Source of the DNA: a virus
IMG/VR virus record: IMGVR_UViG_3300000230_000006
Coordinates: 9,842-41,591 of that record
Length of the DNA: 31,750 nucleotides
Reading direction: 5' to 3' (one strand)
In this document: piece after piece, positions 22,221 to 31,750 of the stretch
Layout: each line of letters opens with the position of its first letter
Numbering within the stretch: position 1 is the first letter of the stretch
Position numbers and translations under genes: made by a program
Notes under the pieces: generated by a model
Databases searched by the model: none
What the model was told of the DNA's origin: nothing
What the model saw: only the letters and a program-made list of their open reading frames with translations

Positions 22221-22802
22221 TTAGCAATACGGTACATTTGCAATGTTATCACCCTTTACATAATTAGTTGAAATCGTTTCTTTACTAATTATATTTTCAG
22301 TATATTCTCTAATAAACATACTCTGAATTTTATGTGGTGCATGTTTTAATGCAATAAAATCAATTTCATCACCATCCGTAGTTGATAAGGTAGTATTAAT
22401 GTCTGACCATTCAATATAGTTATAGTGCTCATCGTGTGATGGAGCAACATAATTTGCCCAATCACCTTGACTACTATTAGTATCAATACCAACAGCAACT
22501 TTATCACTGTCGAACTGTAATATGAATTTAGCTGGTTCTTTTGTTGAATCATATAGATATTCTACTTCAAGATAATATTCAATTGTTAAGAATGATTCAT
22601 CGTTTCCACCAACACGTGCATCAGTAGCTTTAGTTTTAATATTGTTTTTACTTACCAATGAGTCACAAATAAATTGTTTTTGAAAATCTTCATTCTTTAG
22701 TAAATCAACATTTTCTCTTTCTTTAGTGTATGAATCATTATTCAGATAGTCGAAATCAGAAATTTCTTCGTTAATGATTCTTATAATATTTTTATCTTTC
22801 AT
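22221..22802 (-). CDS. Unknown protein, 193 residues
   Basis: Not recognised. It opens with MKDKNIIRIINEEISDFDYL, a phage-type N-terminus like that of the 25048 gene (IIKEEISNLSEYL). It continues with a cystatin-like beta-rich part (ESFLTIEYYLEVEYLYDSTK; PAKFILQFDSDKVAVGID) and the acidic, aromatic HDEHYNYIEWSDIN. An upstream in-frame ATG at 22853 would start before the late motif (22818-22826) and is rejected; the ATG at 22802 lies 15 bases after it. No signal peptide is seen. Confidence 0.7.
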   Translation of the reverse strand: MKDKNIIRIINEEISDFDYLNNDSYTKERENVDLLKNEDFQKQFICDSLVSKNNIKTKATDARVGGNDESFLTIEYYLEVEYLYDSTKEPAKFILQFDSDKVAVGIDTNSSQGDWANYVAPSHDEHYNYIEWSDINTTLSTTDGDEIDFIALKHAPHKIQSMFIREYTENIISKETISTNYVKGDNIANVPYC

Positions 22803-22817
22803 CGAATATAAATTTCT

Positions 22818-22826
22818 AATAAATAC
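22818..22826 (-). promoter_or_regulatory. Late promoter motif GTATTTATT
   Basis: AGTATTTATT on the minus strand, 15 bases before the start of the 193-residue gene. It helps to decide that start. Confidence 0.5.
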
Positions 22827-22857
22827 TAATATTATCCAATAAAAATCAATCACAATA

Positions 22858-22866
22858 GTATTTATA
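22858..22866 (+). promoter_or_regulatory. Late promoter motif GTATTTATA before a structured non-coding region
   Basis: AGTATTTATA on the plus strand with no long gene behind it. What follows is a 5-codon open frame (ATG at 22868), a set of hairpins and a terminator. Confidence 0.5.
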
Positions 22867-22872
22867 TATGAA

Positions 22873-23023
22873 AGTCATTGCTTAATCACTGTATTAAGTT
22901 AAGTCTGAAATTCAGGTATGATTTTTAAATTTTATCGCCAGTCAGTGGCTATGTAAAATTTAAAACTTTACTGAGATATTTAATGTAATAATTGCACTCG
23001 TAAAAAAAGTGCAATTATTTTTT
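22873..23023 (+). ncRNA. Candidate structured small RNA
   Basis: About 150 bases between a late motif (22858) and an intrinsic terminator (22989-23023) without a real gene. The sequence can form four successive hairpins: CTTAAT/ATTAAG (22881-22898), CTGAA/TTCAG (22905-22915), a 12-bp perfect stem TTTTAAATTTTA/TAAAATTTAAAA (22923-22965) topped by GCCA/TGGC with loop GTCAG, and the terminator stem. The only open frame is MKVIA. The transcript start is estimated, not seen. It could also be a leader whose downstream gene was lost. Confidence 0.5.
22989..23023 (+). terminator. Intrinsic terminator of the small RNA
   Basis: A 10-bp perfect stem TAATTGCACT/AGTGCAATTA with a 9-base loop, followed by six T. 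Confidence 0.85.
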
Positions 23024-23030
23024 AAAAAAA

Positions 23031-23061
23031 TTTGGAGTTAATGTAACTTTTATTACCTTTG
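23031..23061 (+). promoter_or_regulatory. Bacteroidetes-type (early) promoter of the Pro/His/Gln tRNA operon
   Basis: TTTG at 23031-23034, a 19-base spacer, then TACCTTTG at 23054-23061. This matches the Bacteroidetes housekeeping consensus TTTG-N19-21-TAnnTTTG. About 35 bases around it are nearly identical to the promoter at 27726-27756. Confidence 0.8.
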
Positions 23062-23065
23062 TAAC

Positions 23066-23074
23066 GTATTTATA
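23066..23074 (+). promoter_or_regulatory. Late motif GTATTTATA overlapping the early start region
   Basis: CGTATTTATA lies 5 bases after the -7 box of the early promoter, so the operon may also be read late. In the second copy (27762) the motif is altered to GTATTTAAA. Confidence 0.4.
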
Positions 23075-23081
23075 AACTCAA

Positions 23082-23095
23082 GCCTAATATTAGGC
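23082..23095 (+). promoter_or_regulatory. 14-base perfect palindrome in the leader
   Basis: GCCTAATATTAGGC, directly after the promoter region. It could be a repressor site or a 5' mRNA hairpin. The second tRNA operon lacks it. Confidence 0.4.
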
Positions 23096-23122
23096 AAAAC
23101 AATTAACGATTAATAAATAGAA

Positions 23123-23200
23123 ATGATGAAAACTTTTACACATACTCAACCCCAACCGCAACAACATCCACAAAATGTTGAATGGGAATGTTATGCTTGA
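23123..23200 (+). CDS. Pro/Gln/His-rich leader peptide of a tRNA operon
   Basis: A 25-codon open frame beginning ATGATG. Codons 7-17 read HTQPQPQQHPQ: two His, five Gln and three Pro in eleven residues. The peptide ends NVEWECYA. Every tRNA decoded downstream with confidence carries Pro, His or Gln. The frame lies between a Bacteroidetes-type promoter and a strong intrinsic terminator (23227-23269) that itself stands just before the first tRNA. Bases 23177-23186, at codons 19-21, can pair with the 5' arm of that terminator. This is the arrangement of amino-acid-operon attenuators such as the his leader, here placed before tRNA genes. That it is translated and acts by stalling is inference; a small functional peptide is the alternative. 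Confidence 0.7.
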   Translation: MMKTFTHTQPQPQQHPQNVEWECYA

Positions 23201-23245
23201 AAGGACTAATCAAAAACTTTAAGTTAAACAAAAACCCCACTCAAC
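23177..23245 (+). promoter_or_regulatory. Antiterminator pairing of the tRNA-operon attenuator
   Basis: GTTGAATGGG (23177-23186) can pair with CCCACTCAAC (23236-23245) in 9 of 10 positions (one A-C mismatch). This pairing excludes the terminator stem, which uses 23235-23239. CCCCAAC at 23150-23156, inside the leader codons, can in turn pair with GTTG and GGG of the antiterminator strand, giving the usual third state. Confidence 0.6.
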
Positions 23246-23269
23246 TAATGAATGGGGTTTTTGTTTTTT
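23227..23269 (+). terminator. Attenuator terminator before the tRNA cluster
   Basis: A 13-bp perfect stem (AACAAAAACCCCA with TGGGGTTTTTGTT), a 13-base loop and a T run. It stands 4 bases upstream of the first tRNA, so the tRNAs can be made from this promoter only if it is bypassed. Confidence 0.85.
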
Positions 23270-23273
23270 ATAT

Positions 23274-23345
23274 CTGGTAGAGAGACTAAGGTAGCAACGT
23301 GCCCTTGGAAGGCATGGGTAGTTCGTTCGATTCGAACCTATCAGA
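23274..23345 (+). tRNA. tRNA-Pro(UGG), D-arm poorly formed
   Basis: The acceptor CTGGTAG/CTATCAG pairs over 7 bases, the anticodon stem is GTGCC/GGCAT with loop CTTGGAA (anticodon TGG), and the T-arm is GTTCG/CGAAC with loop TTCGATT. CCA is encoded at 23346-23348. The D-arm segment (18 bases) does not fold into a normal stem, so this copy may be partly degenerate. An intact tRNA-Pro with the same anticodon lies at 24185. Confidence 0.65.
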
Positions 23346-23381
23346 CCAAATATTGGTTCTTTGATGTATTGTATTAATATG

Positions 23382-23454
23382 GTGTTTATAGCTTAATTGG
23401 TAAAGCGCATGACTGTGAATCATGTAGATGTGGAATCATCCTCCATTAAACGCC
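23382..23454 (+). tRNA. tRNA-His(GUG), T-loop atypical
   Basis: The acceptor GTGTTTA/TAAACGC pairs, the D-arm is GCTT/AAGC, and the anticodon stem is CATGA/TCATG with loop CTGTGAA (anticodon GTG). A G precedes position 1 and C follows position 72, as in tRNA-His. The T-arm GTGGA/TCCAT has loop ATCATCC without the usual TTC. Its last 9 bases overlap the stop end of the opposite-strand endonuclease gene. Confidence 0.7.
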
Positions 23455-24114
23455 CAATTTATTATTAATTATTTTAGTGATGGTTGATAAAAATGTTATT
23501 GATAATTGTTCTTTAAAATATTTTTGATGTGATGTATCAATTACACATAGCTCAATTCCTTGTTCAATACAGGCTTGAAATTTACGTTGGTCATTGTTTT
23601 GTGTTTTAATAAATTTTTCTTCAGTAAAAATCTGTTCATAATGGAAAATACCGTTAAGTTCAAATGCGAGTTTAAGTGATGGTATGTAAACATCTAATTC
23701 AGAATTAATTGTATCTTTTTGATTATAATGAATTTCTAAATTTGGATATAATTCAGTTAATTTAATTTCGACATATTTTTCAAGTTTAGACCTACAATTA
23801 CCTTTGGTTTTATGTTTGTTATTATATGTTGCTGCGCATGAACGTGAACAAAAATTTTTTTCAGTTATTTCAGACAGTTGCCTCACAAATTGTTTATTAC
23901 ATTCTTTACAATTAATGTGTATTCTCGTATCACTACCCTTTTGTTTACAATTAACTGAACAATATTTTAATTTAACAGTTCTATGATTATTAATTACTTT
24001 ATTTATTTCTTTTTTTATGTTGTAAAATGTATTTCCACAATATTCACATTTTAATGGTAACTTTTCGGTTGCTCTATAGCTTTTGAGTGTTGTAATATCA
24101 AATAGTGGTGTCAT
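23446..24114 (-). CDS. Homing endonuclease of the PD-(D/E)XK (Vsr/EDxHD-like) type
   Basis: A 222-residue protein inserted in the tRNA cluster on the opposite strand. The N-terminal half carries zinc-binding pairs: CEYCGNTF, YCSVNC, CKECNKQF and CSRSC (residues about 23-94), typical of DNA-recognition zinc fingers in phage homing enzymes. The C-terminal half has LEIHYNQ, then SELDVYIPSLKLAFELNG (D141, E152) followed by FHYEQ, and later ELCVID: the order seen in Vsr-like/EDxHD homing nucleases. A late motif lies 16 bases before the start. Its last codons and stop lie within the 3' end of tRNA-His (9-base overlap), so insertion without damage to the tRNA required an exact junction. It probably spreads the surrounding tRNA segment between related phages. 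Confidence 0.75.
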   Translation of the reverse strand: MTPLFDITTLKSYRATEKLPLKCEYCGNTFYNIKKEINKVINNHRTVKLKYCSVNCKQKGSDTRIHINCKECNKQFVRQLSEITEKNFCSRSCAATYNNKHKTKGNCRSKLEKYVEIKLTELYPNLEIHYNQKDTINSELDVYIPSLKLAFELNGIFHYEQIFTEEKFIKTQNNDQRKFQACIEQGIELCVIDTSHQKYFKEQLSITFLSTITKIINNKLGV

Positions 24115-24130
24115 ATTTTGTTTAATTTAT

Positions 24131-24139
24131 TATAAATAC
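24131..24139 (-). promoter_or_regulatory. Late promoter motif GTATTTATA before the endonuclease gene
   Basis: AGTATTTATA on the minus strand, 16 bases before the endonuclease start. Confidence 0.55.
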
Positions 24140-24184
24140 TGAAAAATAAATTTCGAAACGAATCTTACACCCAAATAATTTTAT

Positions 24185-24259
24185 GGCGTAGTTGGGGAGA
24201 GGTCACCCCGCCTGCTTTGGGAGCAGGACAACTCGTGAGTTCGAATCTCACCTATGCCA
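24185..24259 (+). tRNA. tRNA-Pro(UGG)
   Basis: The acceptor GGCGTAG/CTATGCC pairs, the D-stem is GGGG/CCCC, the anticodon stem is CCTGC/GCAGG with loop TTTGGGA (anticodon TGG), and the T-arm is GTGAG/CTCAC with loop TTCGAAT. All arms are regular. CCA is not encoded. Confidence 0.9.
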
Positions 24260-24261
24260 CT

Positions 24262-24332
24262 GTGTTGTTAGCTTATCTGGTAAAAGTGCCATACTGTGAA
24301 TATGGAGACAGGGTTCGAGTCCCTACAACACC
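24262..24332 (+). tRNA. tRNA-His(GUG)
   Basis: The acceptor GTGTTGT/ACAACAC pairs, the anticodon stem is CCATA/TATGG with loop CTGTGAA (anticodon GTG), and the T-loop is TTCGAGT on an AGGG/CCCT stem. It starts 2 bases after tRNA-Pro. The base before position 1 is T, not the G usual for tRNA-His. Confidence 0.85.
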
Positions 24333-24335
24333 CAA

Positions 24336-24395
24336 ATAACGGTAACACACGACACATTGACTGTCGTATTTCAGGTTCGAATCCTGATAGGTCAA
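24336..24395 (+). pseudogene. 5'-truncated tRNA-Gln-like remnant
   Basis: A normal 3' part: D-loop end AACGGTAACAC, a stem CGACA/TGTCG with TTG in the anticodon position, T-arm TCAGG/CCTGA with loop TTCGAAT, and a 3' strand TAGGTCA. The 5' acceptor strand (TGACCTA expected) and the first half of the D-stem are missing; the 3' end of tRNA-His occupies that place. The base before the anticodon is A instead of the universal T. The D-loop end is identical to that of tRNA-Gln(CUG) at 24493, suggesting common origin. Confidence 0.55.
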
Positions 24396-24401
24396 CAATA
24401 T

Positions 24402-24484
24402 TGTCCTCTGGCAGAATGGCTATTGCATCACCCTTTGAAGGTGACACCCGCAAGGGTTTACAGGTTCGAGTCCTGTGGGGATAA
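24402..24484 (+). tRNA. tRNA with long variable arm and UUG (Gln) anticodon
   Basis: The acceptor TGTCCTC/GGGGATA pairs, with T1-A72 as in tRNA-Gln. The D-stem is 3 bp (GCA/TGC), the anticodon stem is TCACC/GGTGA with loop CTTTGAA (anticodon TTG), and the T-arm is ACAGG/CCTGT with loop TTCGAGT. Between anticodon and T-arms lies a 15-16-base variable arm with the hairpin ACCC-GCAA-GGGT, which is normally found only in Leu, Ser and Tyr tRNAs. A shift to a Ser anticodon (TGA) breaks the stem. Confidence 0.8.
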
Positions 24485-24492
24485 CTTTACAT

Positions 24493-24563
24493 TACCAAAT
24501 GGTGTAACGGTAACACTCGACCCTCTGGAGGTTGCGTTCTTGGTTCGAATCCAAGTTTGGTTA
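24493..24563 (+). tRNA. tRNA-Gln(CUG)
   Basis: The acceptor TACCAAA/TTTGGTT pairs except for the first position (T-T; a weak 1-72 pair is usual for tRNA-Gln). The D-stem is GTGT/ACAC, the anticodon stem is CGACC/GGTTG with loop CTCTGGA (anticodon CTG), and the T-arm is CTTGG/CCAAG with loop TTCGAAT. Confidence 0.85.
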
Positions 24564-24608
24564 CAAAATAATTATAGACGATAGATTTTCAATAAAAAAA
24601 CCAATAAT

Positions 24609-25013
24609 ATGACGTATAATCTTTTTTTAGACGATATCCGTGAACCTGAACATTGTTTGAGTTATACCCATAATCAAATATATGATGCATTGGATTGGAT
24701 TGTTGTACGTAGTTACGATGAGTTTATTGGGTGTGTTGAATCTATGGGTATTCCCGAAGTAATTAGTTTTGACCATGACCTTGCTGATGAGCATTATGAC
24801 CCGGACTTATATGGTAGTGAAACCTACAATGAAGTGTATGATAATTTTGAATTTAAAACCGGATATGATTGCGCTAAATGGTTTATCGATTACATAATTG
24901 ATAACAATTTACAACTACCCGATACTATTATGATTCACTCAATGAATCCTGTTGGTGCATTAAATATCAAATCATTGTTTGATACATATAATAAAGTTAT
25001 GGGAAAGGATTAA
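24609..25013 (+). CDS. Cyclic-phosphate-processing receiver-domain protein (cREC_REC-like)
   Basis: A 134-residue protein, compact and acidic. It starts NLFLDDIREPE (about 4-14), has the strand-motif VISFDHDLADEHYDPD (about 51-66), then TGYDCAKWFIDYII (about 83-96), and ends PDTIMIHSMNPVGALNI (about 104-120). This set (LDDxR, SFDHDL, TGxDCAxW, HSMNPVGAxNI) is that of the receiver-like domain family named for predicted cyclic-phosphate processing, with Asp and His residues that could bind metal. It follows the tRNA cluster by 45 bases and has no late motif, so it may be read through from the tRNA operon. A role in repair of RNA ends, for instance of cut tRNAs, is an appealing but untested idea. 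Confidence 0.7.
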   Translation: MTYNLFLDDIREPEHCLSYTHNQIYDALDWIVVRSYDEFIGCVESMGIPEVISFDHDLADEHYDPDLYGSETYNEVYDNFEFKTGYDCAKWFIDYIIDNNLQLPDTIMIHSMNPVGALNIKSLFDTYNKVMGKD

Positions 25014-25026
25014 TATAACATTATAC

Positions 25027-25035
25027 GTATTTATA
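25027..25035 (+). promoter_or_regulatory. Late promoter motif GTATTTATA
   Basis: CGTATTTATA on the plus strand, 12 bases before the ATG at 25048. Two earlier ATG codons (25035, 25041) lead to a stop after a few codons and are not used. Confidence 0.6.
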
Positions 25036-25047
25036 TGAAAATGCGTA

Positions 25048-25890
25048 ATGAACATTAATAAAATAATCAAAGAAGAGATTTCAAATTTAAGTGAGTACCT
25101 AACTCATGAAGGTGTTGGCTTAATGAGATATTTTTCAATGACCGATGCTGAAAAGATTGGATATTTACCTGAAGGTTACCCATACGAATATTTATTTAAT
25201 GATTTCCTTGAAGAAACGGATACAGATTATAGTGGCAGTCAATATACTGATTCCGATGGTAATGATATTCCAAACGATGAAGAATTTGAAATATATAACG
25301 TGCCAGAACCAATTAAACGAAAGTATGGTTTGTGGTTATTCAAACAAATTAATAATCATTCCTTAAATATTGAAGATAGTGAATACCCTGCTTGGAGTTA
25401 TTTCGATAGACCAACCTTAATTAAAAATCAATGGCTTATTCATTTCACTGCTGATGCAGATAGTATTGCTAATAATGGATTTATTTATGGTGTTGATGAT
25501 GTAGATAAATTGGGATTAACTACACATTTATCTGATTTCGAAAAAAAATATGGTGGATATAATTTCTCATATGAATTATCGGATTTCATTAGATATGGTA
25601 AAACCAATAGGTCATGGCAAAGCCAAGAATATAAGTATGGTAAAGAAGCAGTAATATTTAGAGCATCTGGTGTAAAACTATGGCATCATACTGATGAAGA
25701 GCCACAAGTTATTTTCTATGGAAAAACAGCAACAAACATAATTCCAATTACGAGTGGTGAAGACAAGAAATATGGTGTTCATAGTAGTAGGAATAACGAA
25801 TTACTGTATGAGTCAGATGACATGGAAGACGTTGTGGATTGGCTGGTAAAAAATTATGCACAATATAGAAAGCATTTATATAATAAATAA
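25048..25890 (+). CDS. Unknown protein, 280 residues; weak resemblance to ADP-ribosyltransferase-fold phage proteins
   Basis: It begins with MNINKIIKEEISNLSEYL, a helical opening like that of the 193-residue gene at 22221. Then comes an acidic, aromatic region. The middle reads QWLIHFTADADSIANNGFIY (about 129-148), later YGGYNFSYELSDF, then YGKEAVIFRASGVKLWHHTD and PQVIFYGKTATNIIPI (about 203-240). The pattern 'LIHFT...I..NGF..G ... GY.F.Y ... E.QVIF.G' resembles proteins with the ADP-ribosyltransferase/DarT-like 'H-x-T ... I...G' layout, but the catalytic Glu cannot be assigned, so the call is weak. Its late motif and position before the internal-protein-like genes suggest a virion or injected protein. 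Confidence 0.6.
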   Translation: MNINKIIKEEISNLSEYLTHEGVGLMRYFSMTDAEKIGYLPEGYPYEYLFNDFLEETDTDYSGSQYTDSDGNDIPNDEEFEIYNVPEPIKRKYGLWLFKQINNHSLNIEDSEYPAWSYFDRPTLIKNQWLIHFTADADSIANNGFIYGVDDVDKLGLTTHLSDFEKKYGGYNFSYELSDFIRYGKTNRSWQSQEYKYGKEAVIFRASGVKLWHHTDEEPQVIFYGKTATNIIPITSGEDKKYGVHSSRNNELLYESDDMEDVVDWLVKNYAQYRKHLYNK

Positions 25891-25899
25891 GTATTTATC
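25891..25899 (+). promoter_or_regulatory. Late promoter motif GTATTTATC for the three-gene unit 25942-27652
   Basis: GTATTTATC on the plus strand directly after the stop of the 280-residue gene and 42 bases before the next start. No further motif is seen before 27013 or 27398. Confidence 0.45.
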
Positions 25900-25941
25900 C
25901 TTAAATGGATTAATAATAAATTATAATAACAACATTACAAT

Positions 25942-26946
25942 ATGAAAAAACCTGATAGTAAACAAAGACTTATTGAGGTCATGACAAGATTAGATAAGAC
26001 ATTCAAATCAAAACCTGAAATCATTAAAGAAACATTTGAACCTGATTATAGCAAGGGTGAATATTTTTACGATAAACTCGAAGAAATAATTAATCAAATG
26101 CAACAAGCTGGCTACGATAATCAAGCAATTTTATCTGAAGTTAATAAAATATTGGGTATTGAAGACGACCTCGGAGAAGGTCGTTTAGCTAATTTAGCTG
26201 CTGGTGTTGGAATGGCAGCAGGCACAATGTTTGGTGGTGGTGCTCAAGCACAGACAACAGCACCAATAAATAAACCCGGTATGGAACAAGCAGATTATAG
26301 TTTAATGAATGATTATTATGTTGGTATTGCAACTAAATTAGCTGCTGAAGCTAAACAAAAGGGTGATACTCAATCAGAAATCGCATACAATAAAATCGCA
26401 CAACATTATAAGGGTGGTAATACATCTGAATTATCTGCTGGTTTAAAACCATATATGGATAATATAATTAAAACTCAACAGAGTGCAAGTCATAATGATA
26501 TTGTTAATTATGTTAGGGGTGTTAATGAATCTGAAGTTGAAGAAGGCAGAATGGCTAATTTGGCAGCAGGTATTGGAATGGCAGCAGGCACAATGTTTGG
26601 TGGTGGTGCTCAAGCACAACAAATGGTATCTGCAGCACCAATGAATAAACCCGGTATGGAACAAACCGACAATAAAGTTCAAGATGCTGATGTGATAAGT
26701 GCAATACTTGGTGTTAACGATATGAAGTTAAGTAATGCAGTACATGCTGGTGATACTGCAACATTAGCAATACATCGTGAAATTAAAGAATACTTTTTAA
26801 ATAAAAGGGATGGTAAAGAAATTAAAAAATTATCGCCAGCAGCAGTAGAAGCAGCAAAAAAAATAGGTGCTGAAATAAATAAAATGTCTTATGATTTATA
26901 TAATCAAACTACGGCTTATGGTAAAACTGTTAGAAGTGCAAATTAA
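25942..26946 (+). CDS. Internal-protein-like protein with the shared N-terminal module and two Gly/Ala repeats
   Basis: A 334-residue protein. The N-terminus KPDSKQRLIEVMTRLDKTF shares its pattern with three other proteins in the window. After a helical part (about 35-75) there are two copies of a 40-residue repeat: EGRLANLAAGVGMAAGTMFG (about 78-97) with GGAQAQ, ending NKPGMEQ, and EGRMANLAAGIGMAAGTMFG (about 200-219) with the same ending. The LAAG..MAAG segment is hydrophobic, like a membrane-inserting helix or signal peptide ending in AQA, but it is internal. Helical Ala/Lys-rich parts follow each copy. The family is not recognised. It could be packaged in the head and act on or in the host envelope after injection; this is inference. 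Confidence 0.7.
   Translation: MKKPDSKQRLIEVMTRLDKTFKSKPEIIKETFEPDYSKGEYFYDKLEEIINQMQQAGYDNQAILSEVNKILGIEDDLGEGRLANLAAGVGMAAGTMFGGGAQAQTTAPINKPGMEQADYSLMNDYYVGIATKLAAEAKQKGDTQSEIAYNKIAQHYKGGNTSELSAGLKPYMDNIIKTQQSASHNDIVNYVRGVNESEVEEGRMANLAAGIGMAAGTMFGGGAQAQQMVSAAPMNKPGMEQTDNKVQDADVISAILGVNDMKLSNAVHAGDTATLAIHREIKEYFLNKRDGKEIKKLSPAAVEAAKKIGAEINKMSYDLYNQTTAYGKTVRSAN
26207..26252 (+). repeat. 46-base direct repeat, copy 1
   Basis: Identical over 46 bases to 26573-26618 within the same gene. It encodes GMAAGTMFGGGAQA and neighbours. Exact identity at DNA level points to a recent duplication or gene conversion. Confidence 0.85.
26573..26618 (+). repeat. 46-base direct repeat, copy 2
   Basis: Second copy of the repeat at 26207-26252, 366 bases (122 codons) further on and in the same frame. 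Confidence 0.85.
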
Positions 26947-27012
26947 TCAACATCGTCATCCGGAATACAACAAATGAATTAAATAATCAATAAGCAATAA
27001 TAAATTAAAAAT

Positions 27013-27354
27013 ATGAAACCATCTAAAGACAGCAAACAAATGCTTTTCGAAATGATGGGTAAACTTGATAAATCATTTAAACCTAAAGCTGAAATCCTTA
27101 ACGAATGGAATTTCGATAAGAAAAATGGCGAAGATAAAGAATCAAAAGAACACGAAGAAAAAGAAGAAAAGGAAGAAACTGGCAAGAAAAAATATAACTT
27201 CGAGAAAAAAGAAGGTGAAGAATCTAAAGAACATGAAGAGTCTAAAACTCCGGAAGAAGAAAATGAAGAGCACGAAGACAAGAAAGAGCTTGATGAAGTT
27301 AAACCTAAAACAAAAATACCTGTAAATATGATTGCAAAGGTTGGCGGTAAATGA
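27013..27354 (+). CDS. Highly charged internal-protein-like protein with the shared N-terminal module
   Basis: A 113-residue protein made of the N-terminal module DSKQMLFEMMGKLDKSFKPK (residues 6-25) followed by a Lys/Glu-only-like region (about 35-95: ESKEHEEKEEKEETGKKK and similar) and a short tail KIPVNMIAKVGGK. Such composition is unlike an enzyme and like the small head-internal proteins of T4-type phages, which are packaged by an N-terminal signal and trimmed by the prohead protease. The module contains LFE, which fits the (L/I)-x-E cleavage rule of T4 gp21. The packaging role is inference. It is second in the unit 25942-27652. Confidence 0.65.
   Translation: MKPSKDSKQMLFEMMGKLDKSFKPKAEILNEWNFDKKNGEDKESKEHEEKEEKEETGKKKYNFEKKEGEESKEHEESKTPEEENEEHEDKKELDEVKPKTKIPVNMIAKVGGK
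27034..27063 (+). repeat. 30-base identity between two neighbouring gene starts, copy 1
   Basis: Identical to 27413-27442. It encodes the KQMLFEMMGK part of the shared N-terminal module, which shows recent copying of that module between genes. Confidence 0.85.
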
Positions 27355-27397
27355 AGTGGTAAGGGTCTAAGTATTAAATAATGTTTATAACTGTGTG

Positions 27398-27652
27398 ATG
27401 AAGAAAGATAGTAAACAAATGCTTTTCGAAATGATGGGTAAATTAGACCCAACATTCGATAATGTAAATGAACTTGTTATTTCTGAAGATATAAGTGTTG
27501 ATGTAAATGTTGGTGATACTATTATGACTGGCAGATTTAAAAATAAACGAACAGTTGTGAAGACAATTGGAAAAGACGAACACGGTATGCCAACTATTAA
27601 TGGTAAGAAAGTAGTAACATTTAGAAAGACTAATGAAAAAAATAGTAAATAA
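27398..27652 (+). CDS. Small protein with the shared N-terminal module
   Basis: An 84-residue protein. MKKDSKQMLFEMMGKLDPTF is nearly the same as the opening of the 113-residue neighbour, including 30 identical bases of DNA. The rest is different: DISVDVNVGDTIMTGRFKN and RTVVKTIGKDEHGMPTING look like a small beta-barrel (SH3-like, 'G-D-x-x-x-x-G-x-x-x-N'). The ATG at 27398 is preferred over the GTG one codon earlier. It is third in the unit, with no own late motif. That two unrelated bodies carry one N-terminus argues that the module is a targeting signal. No function can be named. Confidence 0.65.
   Translation: MKKDSKQMLFEMMGKLDPTFDNVNELVISEDISVDVNVGDTIMTGRFKNKRTVVKTIGKDEHGMPTINGKKVVTFRKTNEKNSK
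27413..27442 (+). repeat. 30-base identity between two neighbouring gene starts, copy 2
   Basis: Copy of 27034-27063. Confidence 0.85.
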
Positions 27653-27725
27653 TAATAAAAACACATAAATTTCTTAGTTGATTATCGATAAGTTAGAAAA
27701 TAAATCAAAAATATTTTAAAAAAAG

Positions 27726-27756
27726 TTTGCAGATAATGTAACTTTTAGTAACTTTG
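27726..27756 (+). promoter_or_regulatory. Bacteroidetes-type (early) promoter of the Asp tRNA operon
   Basis: TTTG at 27726-27729, a 19-base spacer, TAACTTTG at 27749-27756. The stretch AATGTAACTTTTA and the following CTTTGTAACGTATTTA are the same as at 23039-23072, so the two promoters are duplicates. Confidence 0.8.
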
Positions 27757-27832
27757 TAACGTATTTAAATGAAAATACAATAATGATAAACAAGATTTTT
27801 TAAATAGTATAAACAAAATAAAAATTACAACA

Positions 27833-27943
27833 ATGAAAAAAGTACTCGACATATTATTAGTAGTCTTAGCGGTTGACCTATTGTGGGCAGCAATGGAGGA
27901 TGATTGTAAAGTTATCGGGTTCACTGATATTATTGATTGGTAA
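27833..27943 (+). CDS. Short hydrophobic peptide with tandem Asp codons; candidate leader of the Asp tRNA operon
   Basis: A 36-residue open frame. It starts MKKVLDILLVVLAVDLLWAA, which could be a membrane segment, and continues MEDDCKVIGFTDIIDW. Six of 36 residues are Asp, with a GAT GAT pair at 27899-27904. It takes the same place between duplicated promoter and terminator as the Pro/Gln/His-rich leader at 23123, and the tRNAs behind it are both tRNA-Asp. Bases 27914-27921, just after the Asp pair, can pair with the terminator's 5' arm. It may therefore be an attenuator leader, but the hydrophobic part leaves a real small membrane protein as an equal alternative. Confidence 0.6.
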   Translation: MKKVLDILLVVLAVDLLWAAMEDDCKVIGFTDIIDW

Positions 27944-27976
27944 TTTCTAATCACAATATTAATTAAAAAACTCGAT
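27914..27976 (+). promoter_or_regulatory. Possible antiterminator pairing of the Asp tRNA operon
   Basis: ATCGGGTT (27914-27921, inside the leader gene) can pair with AACTCGAT (27969-27976, the terminator's 5' arm) over 8 positions with one G-T pair. It mimics the terminator's own 3' arm (TTCGGGTT). Confidence 0.45.
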
Positions 27977-27997
27977 TCGAGAGATTCGGGTTTTTTT
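27966..27997 (+). terminator. Intrinsic terminator before tRNA-Asp
   Basis: A 10-bp stem AAAAACTCGA/TCGGGTTTTT (one T-G pair), with a loop of about 10 bases and a T run. It lies between the leader-like peptide and the tRNA. Confidence 0.75.
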
Positions 27998-28035
27998 GTT
28001 TTAAGGTCTTTGACATATTGGAAATTTAAGAATAA

Positions 28036-28067
28036 TTGGAGTGGGTTACAAATACAATCCACTCCAA
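28036..28067 (+). other. 9-bp perfect hairpin directly upstream of tRNA-Asp
   Basis: TTGGAGTGG (28036-28044) and CCACTCCAA (28059-28067) around a 14-base loop, ending 5 bases before the tRNA. It has no T run, so a processing or stability element is more likely than a terminator. Confidence 0.55.
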
Positions 28068-28072
28068 AATAA

Positions 28073-28150
28073 CGTCTTATGTGCTCGACTGGCGTGCGAG
28101 AATTGGGCTGTCACCCCTCTAAAACAAGGGTTCAAATCCCTTTGAGACGG
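28073..28150 (+). tRNA. tRNA-Asp(GUC), irregular
   Basis: The acceptor CGTCTTA/TGAGACG pairs, the D-stem is CTCG/CGAG, the T-arm is AAGGG/CCCTT with loop TTCAAAT, and position 73 is G (usual for tRNA-Asp). The anticodon loop CTGTCAC gives GTC, but only three pairs (GGG/CCC) of the anticodon stem form and four bases instead of two separate acceptor and D-stem. It may be degenerate; a regular tRNA-Asp with the same anticodon is at 28936. Confidence 0.6.
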
Positions 28151-28198
28151 CATTGATAATCATGTTGTTACGAATTTTTATTAAAAATATTACTGTTT

Positions 28199-28231
28199 TT
28201 TGAACTATGACAGTTTTTATTTGTAAATTTG
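28199..28231 (+). promoter_or_regulatory. Bacteroidetes-type promoter of the HNH gene, nearly leaderless
   Basis: TTTG at 28199-28202, a 21-base spacer, TAAATTTG at 28224-28231. The ATG follows 4 bases after the -7 box, so the expected transcript start is at or just beyond the start codon. Confidence 0.6.
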
Positions 28232-28235
28232 TATC

Positions 28236-28945
28236 ATGAAGAACGAAAAATATCAAAAAGAATCATTTACGTTAATTGTTTTAAATTCAAACAATTTAAC
28301 CGATGTTGCAAAAAATTTGGGTTTGGTTGCATATTGTGGCAATCGTAACACAATAAAGAAATATATTAAATTATATGATATTGATGTATCACATTTTAAT
28401 ATTGATAATACAAAAAAAAGAGTTGTAAAAAAATTGATTTATCTAAAATATTGGTAATTAATTCTACATATAGTACAACTAATTTAAAATATCGTTTATA
28501 TGATGAAAATTTAAAAGAACGTAAATGCGAATTATGTGGACAAACTGAAGATTGGCAAGGTAAACATATGAGTTTGATTCTTGACCATATAAATGGTATT
28601 AACGATGACCATAGATTGGTAAATTTGAGAATCGTTTGTCCAAATTGTAATGCAACATTACCAACACATAGTGGTAAAAACGTTGGTAATAGCAAATATA
28701 AAAACATTATTAATGGTAATGTCATTAAAAAATATTGTGGTTGCGGTAAAATTATTGAAAATAAGGTAAATAAATGTAATAATTGTGATTCATATAAACA
28801 GCGTAAAGTAGATAGACCACCGCTTGAACAATTAATATCAGAAGTGATTGAATTAGGTTATTCAGGTACTGGTAGAAAGTATAATGTTAGTGACAATGCA
28901 ATTAGAAAATGGATTAGATTTTATGAAAAGCACACACCCTCGTAG
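28236..28945 (+). CDS. HNH homing endonuclease in two frames (-1 frameshift at A AAA AAA)
   Basis: The first frame encodes a helix-turn-helix-like N-terminal domain (NLTDVAKNLGLVAYCGNRNT, about 22-41; KKYIKLYDIDVSHF) and stops at 28455-28457. The -1 frame continues without loss: IDLSKILVINSTYSTTNLKY, then CELCGQ, LILDHINGINDDHRLVNLRI and CPNCNATLPTHSGKN, the HNH core with zinc cysteines, and an end domain with SGTGRKYNVSDNAIRKWI. The joined protein is 236 residues and has the usual layout of free-standing phage HNH enzymes. The frames meet at 28427-28433, A AAA AAA in the zero frame, a classic -1 slippery heptamer. Programmed slippage, a one-base deletion or a homopolymer reading error all fit. 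The stop TAG lies inside tRNA-Asp (10-base overlap). Confidence 0.8.
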
Positions 28946-29009
28946 TTCAGTTGGTCAGAATGGGGCACTGTCTATGCTCAGGTCGCCCGTTCAAGTCGGG
29001 TCGGGGGTT
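28936..29009 (+). tRNA. tRNA-Asp(GUC)
   Basis: The acceptor ACCCTCG/CGGGGGT pairs, the D-stem is GTTC/GAAT, the anticodon stem is GGGCA/TGCTC with loop CTGTCTA (anticodon GTC), and the T-arm is GCCCG/CGGGT with loop TTCAAGT. Its first 10 bases carry the end of the HNH gene. Confidence 0.85.
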
Positions 29010-29085
29010 AATCAACAGCTAACTAAATTTTAACAAAATCTACAAAAAAATATTAAAATTTAACAATAATTTAACATAAAAACAG

Positions 29086-29093
29086 TACTTTTG
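29086..29093 (+). promoter_or_regulatory. Possible -7 box of the IS607-type operon
   Basis: TACTTTTG fits TAnnTTTG and lies 20 bases before the ATG at 29114, but no TTTG is seen about 19-21 bases upstream of it. Confidence 0.35.
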
Positions 29094-29113
29094 ACAAATT
29101 AAAAAGTATATAT

Positions 29114-29332
29114 ATGAGAAAGCAAATTAATAAAGTAATGGAGAACCTAAAAAATAAATCGTTGAAAGTGGTTCGAGTTGATAAAACCGAATTCGAACTT
29201 GATAACGGTGATGTATATCCAATTCCATTCGAGTTGGATGTCGATGAGGATATATCGATTGAAGAGTTCCAGAAGATTTTGGATTCTTCGAAAGAGACTA
29301 TCCTAAAAATATTAGATAAAACGAATGAGTAA
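29114..29332 (+). CDS. Small unknown protein, first gene of the IS607-type unit
   Basis: A 72-residue acidic protein; not recognised. It has a basic start (MRKQINKVMENLKNKSLKVV), a beta-like middle (KTEFELDNGDVYPIPFELD) and a helical end (SIEEFQKILDSSKETILKIL). It overlaps the recombinase start by 8 bases (ATGAGTAA), which implies coupled translation, and its codon use looks like that of the recombinase rather than of the phage genes. It is therefore likely element cargo or a regulator of transposition. Confidence 0.6.
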   Translation: MRKQINKVMENLKNKSLKVVRVDKTEFELDNGDVYPIPFELDVDEDISIEEFQKILDSSKETILKILDKTNE

Positions 29333-29969
29333 ACTATTAACCATTGCACAAACATCTAAGATTTTAAATGTTTCTCAGAACACTCTGAGAAATTGGGATA
29401 GAGTGAATATCAACATCACACCGATAAAAACAGTTGGTGGTCATCGTAGATATAGGGAGGATGATGTTAATAAGTTTATCGGTGAGTTAAAAGTAGAAAG
29501 CGTATCAAATACCGTTGTCACCTACGCTCGTGTGAGTTCACATGAACAGAAAACGAAAGGTGATTTGGATAGACAATCACAACGACTATCTGAGTACTGT
29601 GCGAAGAAGAAGTACGTGGTTCATCACATCATCAAGGATGTTGGCTCTGGACTATCGGATACACGAACTGGATTTGTAAGAATGGTTGACTTAGTAATTA
29701 AGAAGAAGATTAATAAGGTGGTCATCGAGAATAAAGATAGGCTAACCAGATTTCAGTTCAACTTGATTAAGGAGTTCTTCAACAGTTATGACGTAGAGAT
29801 TGAGTGTGTGGATAATGTGAACATATCGAACGAGGAAGAGTTTGTGAATGATATCATGATGCTTATGGCATCATTCTCTGGTAAGTTGTACGGAAAGAGA
29901 AGTGTCAAACGTAAGAAAGAGATTAAAGAACAAAAATTGAGAGATAAATTAAATGAAAATAAAATTTGA
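29325..29969 (+). CDS. tnpA: IS607-family serine recombinase TnpA
   Basis: A 214-residue transposase. Residues 1-55 form a MerR-like helix-turn-helix (TIAQTSKILNVSQNTLRNWD; VGGHRRYREDDVNKF). Residues from 63 on form a resolvase-type catalytic domain: VVTYARVSSHEQK with the nucleophilic Ser at about 71, DLDRQSQRL, then IIKDVGSGLSDTRTGF, VVIENKDRLTRF and MMLMASFSGKLYGKRS. These motifs and the domain order (DNA-binding domain first) are those of IS607 TnpA, not of IS605 Y1 transposases. The length is normal, and all catalytic landmarks are present, so the enzyme may be active. Confidence 0.92.
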   Translation: MSKLLTIAQTSKILNVSQNTLRNWDRVNINITPIKTVGGHRRYREDDVNKFIGELKVESVSNTVVTYARVSSHEQKTKGDLDRQSQRLSEYCAKKKYVVHHIIKDVGSGLSDTRTGFVRMVDLVIKKKINKVVIENKDRLTRFQFNLIKEFFNSYDVEIECVDNVNISNEEEFVNDIMMLMASFSGKLYGKRSVKRKKEIKEQKLRDKLNENKI

Positions 29970-29975
29970 GAAATT

Positions 29976-30293
29976 ATGAAAACAAAAGAACTACTGAAAT
30001 CCTTAACTGTTAATTCGTCCAATATCAATGGAATGAATGGTTTGTTTGGTAAAGAGTTAAAAATTATTGAACCGTTTATTAAGGAATTGGATGAGTTTAA
30101 AGAAGTTAAACATGTTGAAATTGAATGTGATTTTGAAGTCTTTACTCCATCAAATAATCCAAGTGAAAAACATATTGAATTAGTGACTTGTAAATTATCT
30201 GATTGTATGTTCAGTGAATCTATATTGATGTATGGGTTATTTATTTCGGATGATGAAGTGATGATAAGATGTGCAAATTTTTCATTAAGGTAA
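29976..30293 (+). CDS. Unknown protein between tnpA and tnpB
   Basis: A 105-residue protein; not recognised. The first half is helical (KELLKSLTVNSSNINGMNGL; LKIIEPFIKELDEFKEV), and the second half has beta strands (KHVEIECDFEVFTPSNN; EVMIRCANFSL). Three Cys residues do not form a clear metal site. It starts 6 bases after the tnpA stop and ends 10 bases before tnpB, so it is part of the same transcript. Standard IS607 elements have no gene here; it could be captured cargo, or a gene coming from the phage, since it appears more AT-rich than its neighbours. Confidence 0.6.
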   Translation: MKTKELLKSLTVNSSNINGMNGLFGKELKIIEPFIKELDEFKEVKHVEIECDFEVFTPSNNPSEKHIELVTCKLSDCMFSESILMYGLFISDDEVMIRCANFSLR

Positions 30294-30303
30294 ATCATTA
30301 CTA

Positions 30304-31398
30304 ATGAAACTAATTAGGTCAACCAAGTGTAGTCTGAAATTCAGTACACAGAAAAAGAAGAATGAGTTGTTAATCATCTTAGACGAGTACTCTAAGGTGG
30401 TTAACTTCTTCATCAACTATTTCTGGTTAAATCCTACTATCATGAGCAAAGGTAGTCTACTAAAACCTGTTGTTGACTTACCACAAGAATCTTGGCTATC
30501 TGCACGATTACGTAAAGTTGCTGCACGAGAAGCAATTGATATGATTAACGCCAGCAAAGAACGTTGGAAGAATAAAGCAGTTATCCCTGTTCATAAAGGT
30601 AATCGGATGTACGTGAGTTGTACCATTGCTGATTTGATACCAAGTAAACTATCTACTGAGTTTGATGCTTGGTTACACCTTGCATCAATCGGTAATAAGA
30701 AAATATTAGACCTACCGATTAAGTATCATAAGCACTTTAATAAGTATAACCTAACAGGTAAACGTCTGAACTCGTATATTATCACCAAGAACTATGTTCA
30801 GTTCAGTTTTGAGATAATTACACTACCAAAACGTGAAGGAAAACTTTGCATCGGTATTGATACTGGTATTAATGCATTAGCATCGTTGAATAATGGTAAG
30901 CAGTATGGTTTAGATATTAAGGAATATATTGAACGAGTTAAGCGTTGTGTACAGGGGAGTAAAGGATATTACGTGGCAAAACGAGCGTTGAAGCAACGTA
31001 TCGATGAGGTTGCCATTGAAATAGTAAATACAGAGAACCCAGATTTAATAGTTGTAGAAAAACTAAAGAGTATGGGCAAAAAGTCAAAAGCCAAACGTTT
31101 ATTGGCTAAAAGTATTAGACGTTCTATCGGAACATGGAATTGGAAGTACTGGTTGAAAAGGTTGGAAGCACAGTGTGAGACTAATCGTATTAGTTTTCGC
31201 AGTGTAGCACCTTATTACACCAGTACGACCTGTCCTGTTTGTGGTCACTCTGATAGGGGGAATCGATTGGGAGAAGTATTCTTGTGTCTAAAGTGTGGTC
31301 ACAAAGACAATGCAGATATTAACGCTGGCAAGAATATTTTGAATCGATTTCTCACAGGACAATACGGTGTCTGTTACAAAGAAGTTAGTCTGATTTAG
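30304..31398 (+). CDS. tnpB: TnpB RNA-guided nuclease
   Basis: A 364-residue protein with the RuvC and zinc-finger architecture of TnpB. The catalytic acids are LCIGIDTGINALASL (D186), LIVVEKLKSMG (E252) and DNADINAGKNI (D338). The zinc ribbon is CPVCG ... CLKCG (C310, C313, C328, C331), and VAPYYTSTTCP is the usual lead-in. All three acids and all four cysteines are present, so the nuclease may be active; the length is near the usual 370-400. TnpB uses an RNA made from the 3' end of its own gene and the element's right end as a guide, and cuts next to a short motif matching the element's left-end flank. Here that guide would read into the tRNA gene at 31500. Confidence 0.93.
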   Translation: MKLIRSTKCSLKFSTQKKKNELLIILDEYSKVVNFFINYFWLNPTIMSKGSLLKPVVDLPQESWLSARLRKVAAREAIDMINASKERWKNKAVIPVHKGNRMYVSCTIADLIPSKLSTEFDAWLHLASIGNKKILDLPIKYHKHFNKYNLTGKRLNSYIITKNYVQFSFEIITLPKREGKLCIGIDTGINALASLNNGKQYGLDIKEYIERVKRCVQGSKGYYVAKRALKQRIDEVAIEIVNTENPDLIVVEKLKSMGKKSKAKRLLAKSIRRSIGTWNWKYWLKRLEAQCETNRISFRSVAPYYTSTTCPVCGHSDRGNRLGEVFLCLKCGHKDNADINAGKNILNRFLTGQYGVCYKEVSLI

Positions 31399-31499
31399 TC
31401 TATTAGTAGATTTTGTTAGATTAATTTTAACGGTGCAAAACATATATCGGAAGGTATGTGAAGCAAGATGTTCTGAATACGTAATAGGAATGCCTTGAA
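31300..31499 (+). ncRNA. Expected TnpB guide (omega/re) RNA region
   Basis: In TnpB elements the guide RNA spans the 3' end of tnpB and the sequence to the right end. The 101 non-coding bases after the stop hold possible short stems (for instance ACATA/TATGT around 31440-31460) and no gene. The boundaries and guide are not visible directly; this entry rests on family knowledge. Confidence 0.35.
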
Positions 31500-31573
31500 A
31501 GACTCGTAGTTTATATTGGTGTGAATACCCTCTCGCATGGGGGTGGTTGCTGGTTCGAATCCAGTGGGGTCTG
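31500..31573 (+). tRNA. tRNA of uncertain identity (Cys GCA or Ala CGC)
   Basis: The acceptor AGACTCG/GGGGTCT pairs in 6 of 7 positions, the D-arm is GTTT/GAAT, and the T-arm is GCTGG/CCAGT with loop TTCGAAT. The anticodon arm ACCCTCTCGCATGGGGGT can be read with loop TCGCATG (GCA, but C instead of T before it) or CTCGCAT (CGC, but a mismatched stem end). It directly abuts the IS607-type element. Confidence 0.6.
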
Positions 31574-31645
31574 CAAAATTACCGTTTTAACAGTAAATTA
31601 TCACATATTTTGTAATATATTGCACTTTTTAGTGTATTTTTAAAT

Positions 31646-31728
31646 GCTGGCTTATACAAGTGGCTAAAGTAAGCACCCTTTCAAGGTGTTACCGTAAGGT
31701 TTCGTGGATTCGAATTCCACAGTCAGTA
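31646..31728 (+). tRNA. tRNA with long variable arm and UUC (Glu) anticodon
   Basis: The acceptor GCTGGCT/AGTCAGT pairs (two G-T pairs), the D-stem is 3 bp (TAC/GTA), the anticodon stem is GCACC/GGTGT with loop CTTTCAA (anticodon TTC), and the T-arm is GTGGA/TCCAC with loop TTCGAAT. The 14-base variable arm can form ACC-GTAA-GGT. It shows the same unexpected combination as the tRNA at 24402. Confidence 0.75.
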
Positions 31729-31750
31729 CAATTTATTTTCATCATTTCAC

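Follow-up and report, generated by a model that had tools for sequence, protein, structure and literature searches.

Architecture of the operon B leader unit

The window analysed here is a stretch of 31,750 bases, part of a 54,860-base IMG/VR virus record, and all coordinates are positions in this window. Its source is a large T4-like phage with Bacteroidota-type promoters; as evidenced by Pfam, the record encodes a portal protein and a terminase of the T4 type. A scan of a genome collection with the type D leader described below gave one match, together with Lys and Tyr tRNAs, in a metagenome-assembled Bacteroidota bacterium, and as the promoters also fit the Bacteroidetes consensus, the hosts of these phages are probably Bacteroidota.

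At 27726-29009 a promoter, a short open reading frame, an intrinsic terminator and two tRNA-Asp genes follow one another on the plus strand (Table 1). The promoter elements, TTTG at 27726-27729 and TAACTTTG at 27749-27756, match the Bacteroidetes consensus TTTG (-33) / TAnnTTTG (-7) as it appears in the available text of PMC7366714. The first-pass annotation had described this promoter as a near copy of the one at 23031, and both 30-base cores indeed fit a shared pattern with 0 mismatches where 3 were allowed. They are its sole two matches in the 54,860-base record, and scanning the viral contig collection with the same pattern yielded no further contig. The 36-codon frame with six Asp codons, including GAT GAT at 27899-27904, was confirmed, as was the terminator after it. 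Note that a simple terminator scan did not return this stem, probably because its loop of 10 exceeds the limit of that scan. A segment within the frame, region 2, can pair with region 3 in the 5' arm of the terminator; the 8 paired positions proposed earlier were recovered, one of them a G-U pair, but the Asp pair lies 9 bases from region 2 and not 10.

Both tRNA-Asp genes form complete cloverleaves according to ARAGORN. In the Rfam tRNA model the first one stays below the gathering threshold of 29 bits, and the second is absent from the matches although it is canonical by ARAGORN. The corresponding place of operon B in the relative L060 holds three tRNA matches above the Rfam cut-off, two of which are the ARAGORN Asp genes, and the assignment of both genes is backed by ARAGORN and by relatives, but only poorly by Rfam in the window itself. 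The divergent gene, with its unusual D arm (GTGCTCGACTGGCGTGCG in the record), is conserved in G006, G039, G041 and G048, and similar genes are located in operon B of relatives such as G039, G041 and G048.

Table 1. Features of operons A and B in the window
Feature	Position	Strand	Basis or remark
Operon A promoter	23031-23061	+	shared promoter pattern
Operon A leader ORF, MMKTFTHTQPQPQQHPQNVEWECYA	23123-23200	+	region 2 is TGTTGAATGGGA
Operon A terminator	23231-23261	+	
Operon A tRNAs Pro, His, Pro, His, Gln, Gln	23274-24564	+	ARAGORN, Rfam; opposite-strand gene in between
Operon B promoter, TTTG ... TAACTTTG	27726-27756	+	Bacteroidota type, consensus fit
Operon B leader ORF, MKKVLDILLVVLAVDLLWAAMEDDCKVIGFTDIIDW	27833-27943	+	36 codons, translation predicted
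Control codons 4-24, V L D I L L V V L A V D L L W A A M E D D	27842-27904	+	
Region 2, ATCGGGTT	27914-27921	+	antiterminator strand, within ORF
Intrinsic terminator of operon B	27967-27994	+	9-bp stem, loop of 10, then T run
Region 3, AACTCGAT	27969-27976	+	5' arm of terminator, partner of region 2
tRNA-Asp (GTC), divergent D arm	28073-28151	+	ARAGORN; Rfam 17.2 bits
tRNA-Asp (GTC)	28936-29009	+	ARAGORN; not listed by Rfam
tRNA-like gene, operon B	31500-31574	+	anticodon unclear; Rfam 28.7 bits, gathering 29
tRNA-Glu (TTC), operon B	31646-31729	+	ARAGORN

Several other genes lie among the tRNAs. Cys-rich ORFs that look endonuclease-like by eye interrupt the tRNA runs at 23446-24114 (-) and at 28236-28945 (+), the latter split into two frames (28236-28457 and 28451-28945); neither has a Pfam match. 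A cREC_REC domain gene (PF20274, cyclic-phosphate processing receiver) is located at 24609-25013, between operons A and B, and by its name may act in the processing or repair of RNA ends, as would suit a phage faced with cut tRNAs. An IS607-like element (MerR and serine resolvase, followed by a TnpB/Cas12f-like protein, all by Pfam) occupies 29325-31398, between the Asp and Glu tRNA genes. Together with other genes it separates the Asp from the Glu tRNAs, and this counts against presuming a single transcript for operon B.

Four tRNA operons share one plan

Beyond the end of the window operon B continues with Glu, Val, Leu, Leu, Ala, Leu, Leu and a CUA-anticodon tRNA, and some 10 kb further on in the record a third unit consists of the leader MKTVNAYYKQYYYKRNVCETDITMSLSE, a terminator and Lys, Lys, Tyr and Lys tRNAs. 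Four conserved tRNA operons, A, B, D and E, occur in the record and dozens of related IMG/VR contigs, all following the order of promoter, short ORF, intrinsic terminator and tRNAs. The amino-acid sets of the four leader ORFs equal the tRNA sets of their operons (Table 2) and add up to all 20 amino acids. Trp and Met tRNAs of operon B are present in relatives and were not seen in the record. It had been proposed that two independent leaders match their tRNAs; each does, but the number is three in the record and four in better-covered relatives.

A terminase search provided 55 relatives, of which 30 records were taken to a tRNA search and 20 carried tRNAs; G004, with 1 tRNA, was left out of the fetched tRNA regions. 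Mapping via leader patterns added 35 more records, a selection that favours leader-bearing records by design, and G034, G040 and G045 were left out because their A and D leaders are identical to those of G038. The fetched tRNA regions of the record and its relatives were then scanned without regard to composition for a promoter, an ORF of 14-60 codons, a terminator and a tRNA within 1.5 kb, and all figures refer to the stricter of two rule sets. The scan gave 118 matches, 116 without repeats, and since part of the records came via leader patterns these counts describe the regularity of the design and not its frequency among phages. Comparison with leaders in front of tRNA groups in related phages, as the first-pass annotation had advised, rests on 114 leaders of four types, assigned after the scan by peptide motif, with 2 other matches besides. 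Of the 114 leaders, 112 are followed by a first tRNA from the set of their type; the exceptions are the A operon of G047 (Arg) and the D operon of G064 (Leu). The B arrangement recurs in 30 other contigs.

Homologues of the leader peptide without tRNA genes behind them and with conserved hydrophobic sequence, which would have spoken against the proposal, were looked for as well, and the outcome is in its favour. Every leader-type ORF found by pattern (A, B, D, E) has cognate tRNAs downstream except five, and in these (L141, L148, L160, L168 and L173) the locus ends just past the leader. The remaining pattern matches are not of a leader type, among them a 17-residue ORF with HPQ and EWG in two short contigs that has no tRNA downstream. 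An over-strict pattern for B leaders gave zero matches, and a looser one returned B leaders along with non-leader matches lacking tRNAs. A tblastn search of the A, B, D and E leaders against 50,697 named phage records produced no credible match, only weak ones in Streptococcus and Enterococcus phages. Two named phages that are distantly related by terminase, Flavobacterium phage immuto (W01, 3 tRNAs) and LR756508 (W02, 28 tRNAs), yielded no leader in those tRNA regions that were fetched. A group of Leu, Leu and Met tRNAs lies several kb past operon B (L060:10640-11860 and similar places), and no leader was found in front of it.

Table 2. Properties of the four leader types
Property	A	B	D	E
tRNA set of operon	Pro/His/Gln	Asp/Glu/Val/Leu/Ala/Trp/(Met)	Lys/Tyr	Thr/Cys/Ile/Ser/Asn/Phe/Gly/Arg
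Leaders in scan	38	31	22	23
Typical peptide	MKNLVNIQPQPQQHPQDGEWGSYT	MKNLLDILMVVLAVDLLWADAEDKLCLVG	MRTFGTYYYGKKSYKKQLIGIGNTMTKGKR	MKTYRNISSISTSTTSRNGNGIFCSDFTGRNIMDGVMVI
Own-set residues in control window (limits set after seeing the codon-offset profile)	260/297	464/504	149/240	493/531
Own-set share in control window	0.88	0.92	0.62	0.93
Own-set background share	0.08	0.35	0.14	0.44
Whole-peptide own-set enrichment over background, fold (99 distinct)	4.6	2.0	2.3	1.9
Region 2	GAATGGGG (most)	GTCGGG (most)	ATCGGG (most)	ACGGGTT (many)
Leader:terminator-arm duplex vs codon-shuffled, kcal/mol	-13.6 vs -6.6	-15.6 vs -9.3	-12.3 vs -7.2	-12.7 vs -8.4
Duplex p <= 0.05 vs codon-shuffled	28/33	25/28	14/20	12/19
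Protective 1:2 hairpin p <= 0.05	5/33	18/28	0/20	1/19

Leader codons mirror the downstream tRNAs

Within codons 4-24 of the B leader in the window, 20 of the 21 residues belong to the operon B set (binomial 5.5e-9), and Ile is the one true non-cognate residue. A match to the own set is found in all four types (Table 2), while the enrichment of any leader for the sets of the other operons does not exceed 1.16-fold (whole peptides, 99 distinct). For the operons with most tRNAs found, those with few being excluded, all 388 of 388 own-set tRNA amino acids occur in the respective leader. Only 2 set members are absent from their leader, Val and Met in the B operon of G047, and both also lack a tRNA there. 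Of the two exceptional operons, the A operon of G047 starts with tRNA-Arg and has an Arg codon in its leader (MKNLLNNGRPQQHPQ), and the D operon of G064 starts with tRNA-Leu and has a leader containing YYLYKSY. We counted against the match 22 set members that have a codon in the leader but no tRNA found, as well as the weak agreement between leaders and extra non-canonical tRNAs (6/22, Fisher p = 0.048). Note also that G054 has Leu in its D leader, yet a tRNA-Leu was not found in its D operon.

These data change the specificity that was first assigned to the unit. It had been taken for an Asp sensor, but operon B also holds Glu, Val, Leu and Ala tRNAs, and relatives add Trp and Met. The abundance of Leu, Val and Ile had been read as a weakening of the match and a possible sign of a membrane peptide; as Leu, Val, Ala and Trp are cognate to operon B (Trp in relatives), these residues strengthen the match instead. 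The core of the proposal, that the codons of the leader correspond to the tRNAs behind the terminator and that an antiterminator overlaps the leader, is strongly supported.

Codon choice is biased as well. Common U-ending codons are avoided in the control regions (93/695 = 0.13 vs 0.38 background; CCT 0/90 vs 0.28), and rare codons such as GTC, CTC, GAG and CGC are favoured. It is a known idea that control codons are selected for their sensitivity to shortage, and the bias in the phage leaders fits it. In type B the bias may in part serve a 1:2 hairpin treated below. Such leaders are probably slow to read, and one could thus suppose that they respond to any slow ribosome, for instance under drugs or at low energy, and that slow codons account for the amino-acid match. 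General slowness does not predict that four disjoint amino-acid sets equal the tRNAs of their own operons, and we consider this explanation improbable.

Alternative pairing and the ribosome footprint

In each leader the segment near the end of the ORF, region 2, can pair with the 5' arm of the terminator and thereby take the place of its 3' arm, region 4. For the pairing and footprint tests identical leaders were removed, which left 100 distinct ones of 114. In all four types the duplex is more stable than for codon-shuffled ORFs (Table 2); for the window's B leader the difference corresponds to p = 0.035, a value for a single leader that we counted against the proposal. At 7 of 8 columns the pairs between regions 2 and 3 are conserved in type A (32-33 of 33 leaders), and likewise at 7 of 8 in type B (27-28 of 28). 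Per-column counts for D and E are poor, because the MAFFT alignments appear to misplace some pairs. Three A leaders show a three-way change from TA/AT to CG/GC, and pairing is kept with altered letters in the D leader of the record (GAGACTG with CAGTCTT), in the A leader of G005 (GAACGGGG with CCCTGTT), in the E leaders of G051 and G053 and in the B leader of G037. In the A leaders of G019 and G058 the ORF stops before region 2 but the RNA pairing remains, which points to selection at the RNA level.

The enrichment of cognate codons depends on their position relative to region 2. From codon offset -7 to -5 it amounts to about 4-fold, it is 3.1 at -4 and 2.7 at -3, drops to 0.8 at -2 and is near background after that; the last Asp codon in the window's B leader lies at offset -4. 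In simulations with transcripts ending before region 4 and a ribosome mask that extends 12 nt beyond the start of the A-site codon, pairing of regions 2 and 3 is near 1 up to offset -4, 0.75-0.92 at -3, 0.12-0.41 at -2 and about 0 after. Note that peptide composition underlies the first profile, and RNA pairing together with an assumption on ribosome size the second; region 2 is the reference of both. The cognate codons thus stop some 3 codons before region 2, the point at which, in this model, coverage of region 2 by a stalled ribosome would set in.

In these truncated transcripts, and in silico only, the position of the ribosome decides which hairpin forms. E. coli thrL, a proven attenuator, gave a clear profile with the same method, equal to that of the phage leaders, while trpL did not show a clear switch in the co-transcriptional test. 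When the whole terminator is included in equilibrium folding, it prevails for almost all stall positions in the majority of leaders, so that the switch must be kinetic. As thrL has the same outcome, this test is uninformative and not favourable. In D, E and some B leaders, among them the one in the window, region 2 stops some 10-30 nt short of the ORF end and would not always lie under a ribosome that waits at the stop codon, so that termination would require ribosomes that have just passed, or kinetics. A protective 1:2 hairpin of the trp type may exist in type B, the only type in which it has support (Table 2).

Both the pairing and the profile bear on the possibility that the ORF encodes a small functional, perhaps membrane-bound peptide, with the terminator ending its own transcript and the tRNAs being incidental or separately promoted. 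The B-leader peptide is hydrophobic (mean Kyte-Doolittle value of 1.57), and the hydrophobic block is conserved among B-type leaders. Nevertheless, none of 436 hydrophobic 21-residue windows from long ORFs of these contigs reaches 20 of 21 residues in the set (maximum 18, mean 8.8), and the control residues include 5 acidic ones and only 1 of 21 that is I, F, G, S or T. The three other leaders are not hydrophobic but match their operons equally well, the codon match ends at the antiterminator, and region 2 persists as RNA in the two leaders whose ORF stops earlier. A peptide function of this kind is thus very improbable. Least credible of all is a role in titration or timing without antitermination, where the ORF consumes scarce aminoacyl-tRNAs or promoter and terminator strength times the operon: each unit does have its own promoter and terminator, and in one known phage the tRNAs are driven by a strong promoter (PMC11555353), but neither the conserved pairing of regions 2 and 3 nor the footprint-length gap between the last cognate codon and region 2 would be explained.

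A probable feedback sensor for shortage of charged tRNA

We conclude that the unit at 27726-29009 is very probably the leader of a phage tRNA operon under ribosome-mediated transcription attenuation, a feedback sensor for shortage of charged tRNA. The sequence itself shows the anatomy of the unit, the agreement of its codons with the tRNAs, the conservation of the alternative pairing and a spacing in keeping with the ribosome footprint. That polymerase and ribosome act accordingly in the host, and that tRNA output rises upon shortage, is inferred. RNA polymerase would start a few bases past the promoter, and a ribosome would translate the leader. With Asp-, Glu-, Val-, Leu-, Ala-, Trp- and Met-tRNAs charged it would run through and cover or pass region 2, the terminator would form, and the tRNAs would not be made. 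If any one of the set were short, the ribosome would stall upstream on its codon and leave region 2 free to pair with region 3 while region 4 is still to be transcribed. The terminator would then be blocked and operon B (Asp, Asp, Glu, Val, Leu, Ala and so on) transcribed. As the new tRNAs would relieve the stall, the loop would limit itself. The shortage would presumably arise from host tRNA-cleaving defences or from loss of the host tRNA supply during infection.

The three sister leaders would act alike for Pro/His/Gln, Lys/Tyr and Thr/Cys/Ile/Ser/Asn/Phe/Gly/Arg, and as the four sets add up, the leaders would jointly report on all 20 amino acids. With moderate confidence we favour the view that they form a complete sensor for translation shortage, four OR-gate attenuators that divide the 20 amino acids among them, each of which would release its tRNA set once any one member becomes scarce, and that would replace tRNAs on demand, with negative feedback, against defences or decay.

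Relation to known systems

The units resemble thrL and the his, leu, ilv, phe and trp attenuators in their short ORF with control codons, their intrinsic terminator and an antiterminator strand located where the ORF ends, and thrL, with Thr and Ile codons, is also a single leader for several amino acids. They differ from this class in that they control tRNAs and not biosynthetic enzymes, in the number of 2 to 8 amino acids per leader, in the partition of all 20 among four leaders and in being carried by a phage. T-box riboswitches, which sense uncharged tRNA directly and respond to charging, often via transcription termination, share the response to tRNA charging that we propose, but they use an RNA specifier loop in place of a leader that is predicted to be translated. 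No match to the T-box covariance model was obtained at E <= 1 in the region 22800-31750 of the window.

Phage tRNAs replace host tRNAs that were destroyed by anticodon nucleases or retron defences, according to the available portions of PMC10264068, PMC11555353 and PMC12409363, and searches of the accessible text of the first two revealed no mention of regulation by tRNA shortage. For Flavobacterium psychrophilum, of the same phylum as the probable phage hosts, the accessible part of PMC9723704 reports clues to leader-peptide attenuation, upstream of cellular amino-acid biosynthesis operons and not of tRNA genes or in a phage. A full-text literature search that covered few subscription journals, and no bioRxiv preprints as such, gave no title or beginning of an abstract in which phage tRNA operons are linked to attenuation or leader peptides. 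The class of mechanism is thus classical, but its use on phage tRNA operons and the division of the 20 amino acids among four leaders appear to be new.

A leader that mirrors the tRNAs it controls tells what the phage would respond to, namely a shortage of those charged tRNAs. If this holds true, a large phage replaces whichever tRNAs the tRNA-cleaving defences of its host, or decay, remove during infection, and the reach of attenuation goes beyond enzyme operons to include stable-RNA operons and viruses. From leader composition one could predict which tRNAs are grouped and sensed by a phage, the leaders would be ready-made charging sensors for multiple amino acids in Bacteroidota, and the question becomes testable by reporter, with a clear prediction for each amino acid.

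Two further tRNA species were observed in the operons. A CUA-anticodon tRNA, labelled 'Pyl' by ARAGORN, occurs at L059:3240-3325 and also, in several E operons, close to their end, and is perhaps an amber suppressor. Genes for tRNA-Met(CAT) are found within the Ile-containing operon E of G038, G052-G055, G059 and G062; as the E leaders contain many ATA codons and few Met, these may represent a tRNA-Ile2 that reads ATA after modification.
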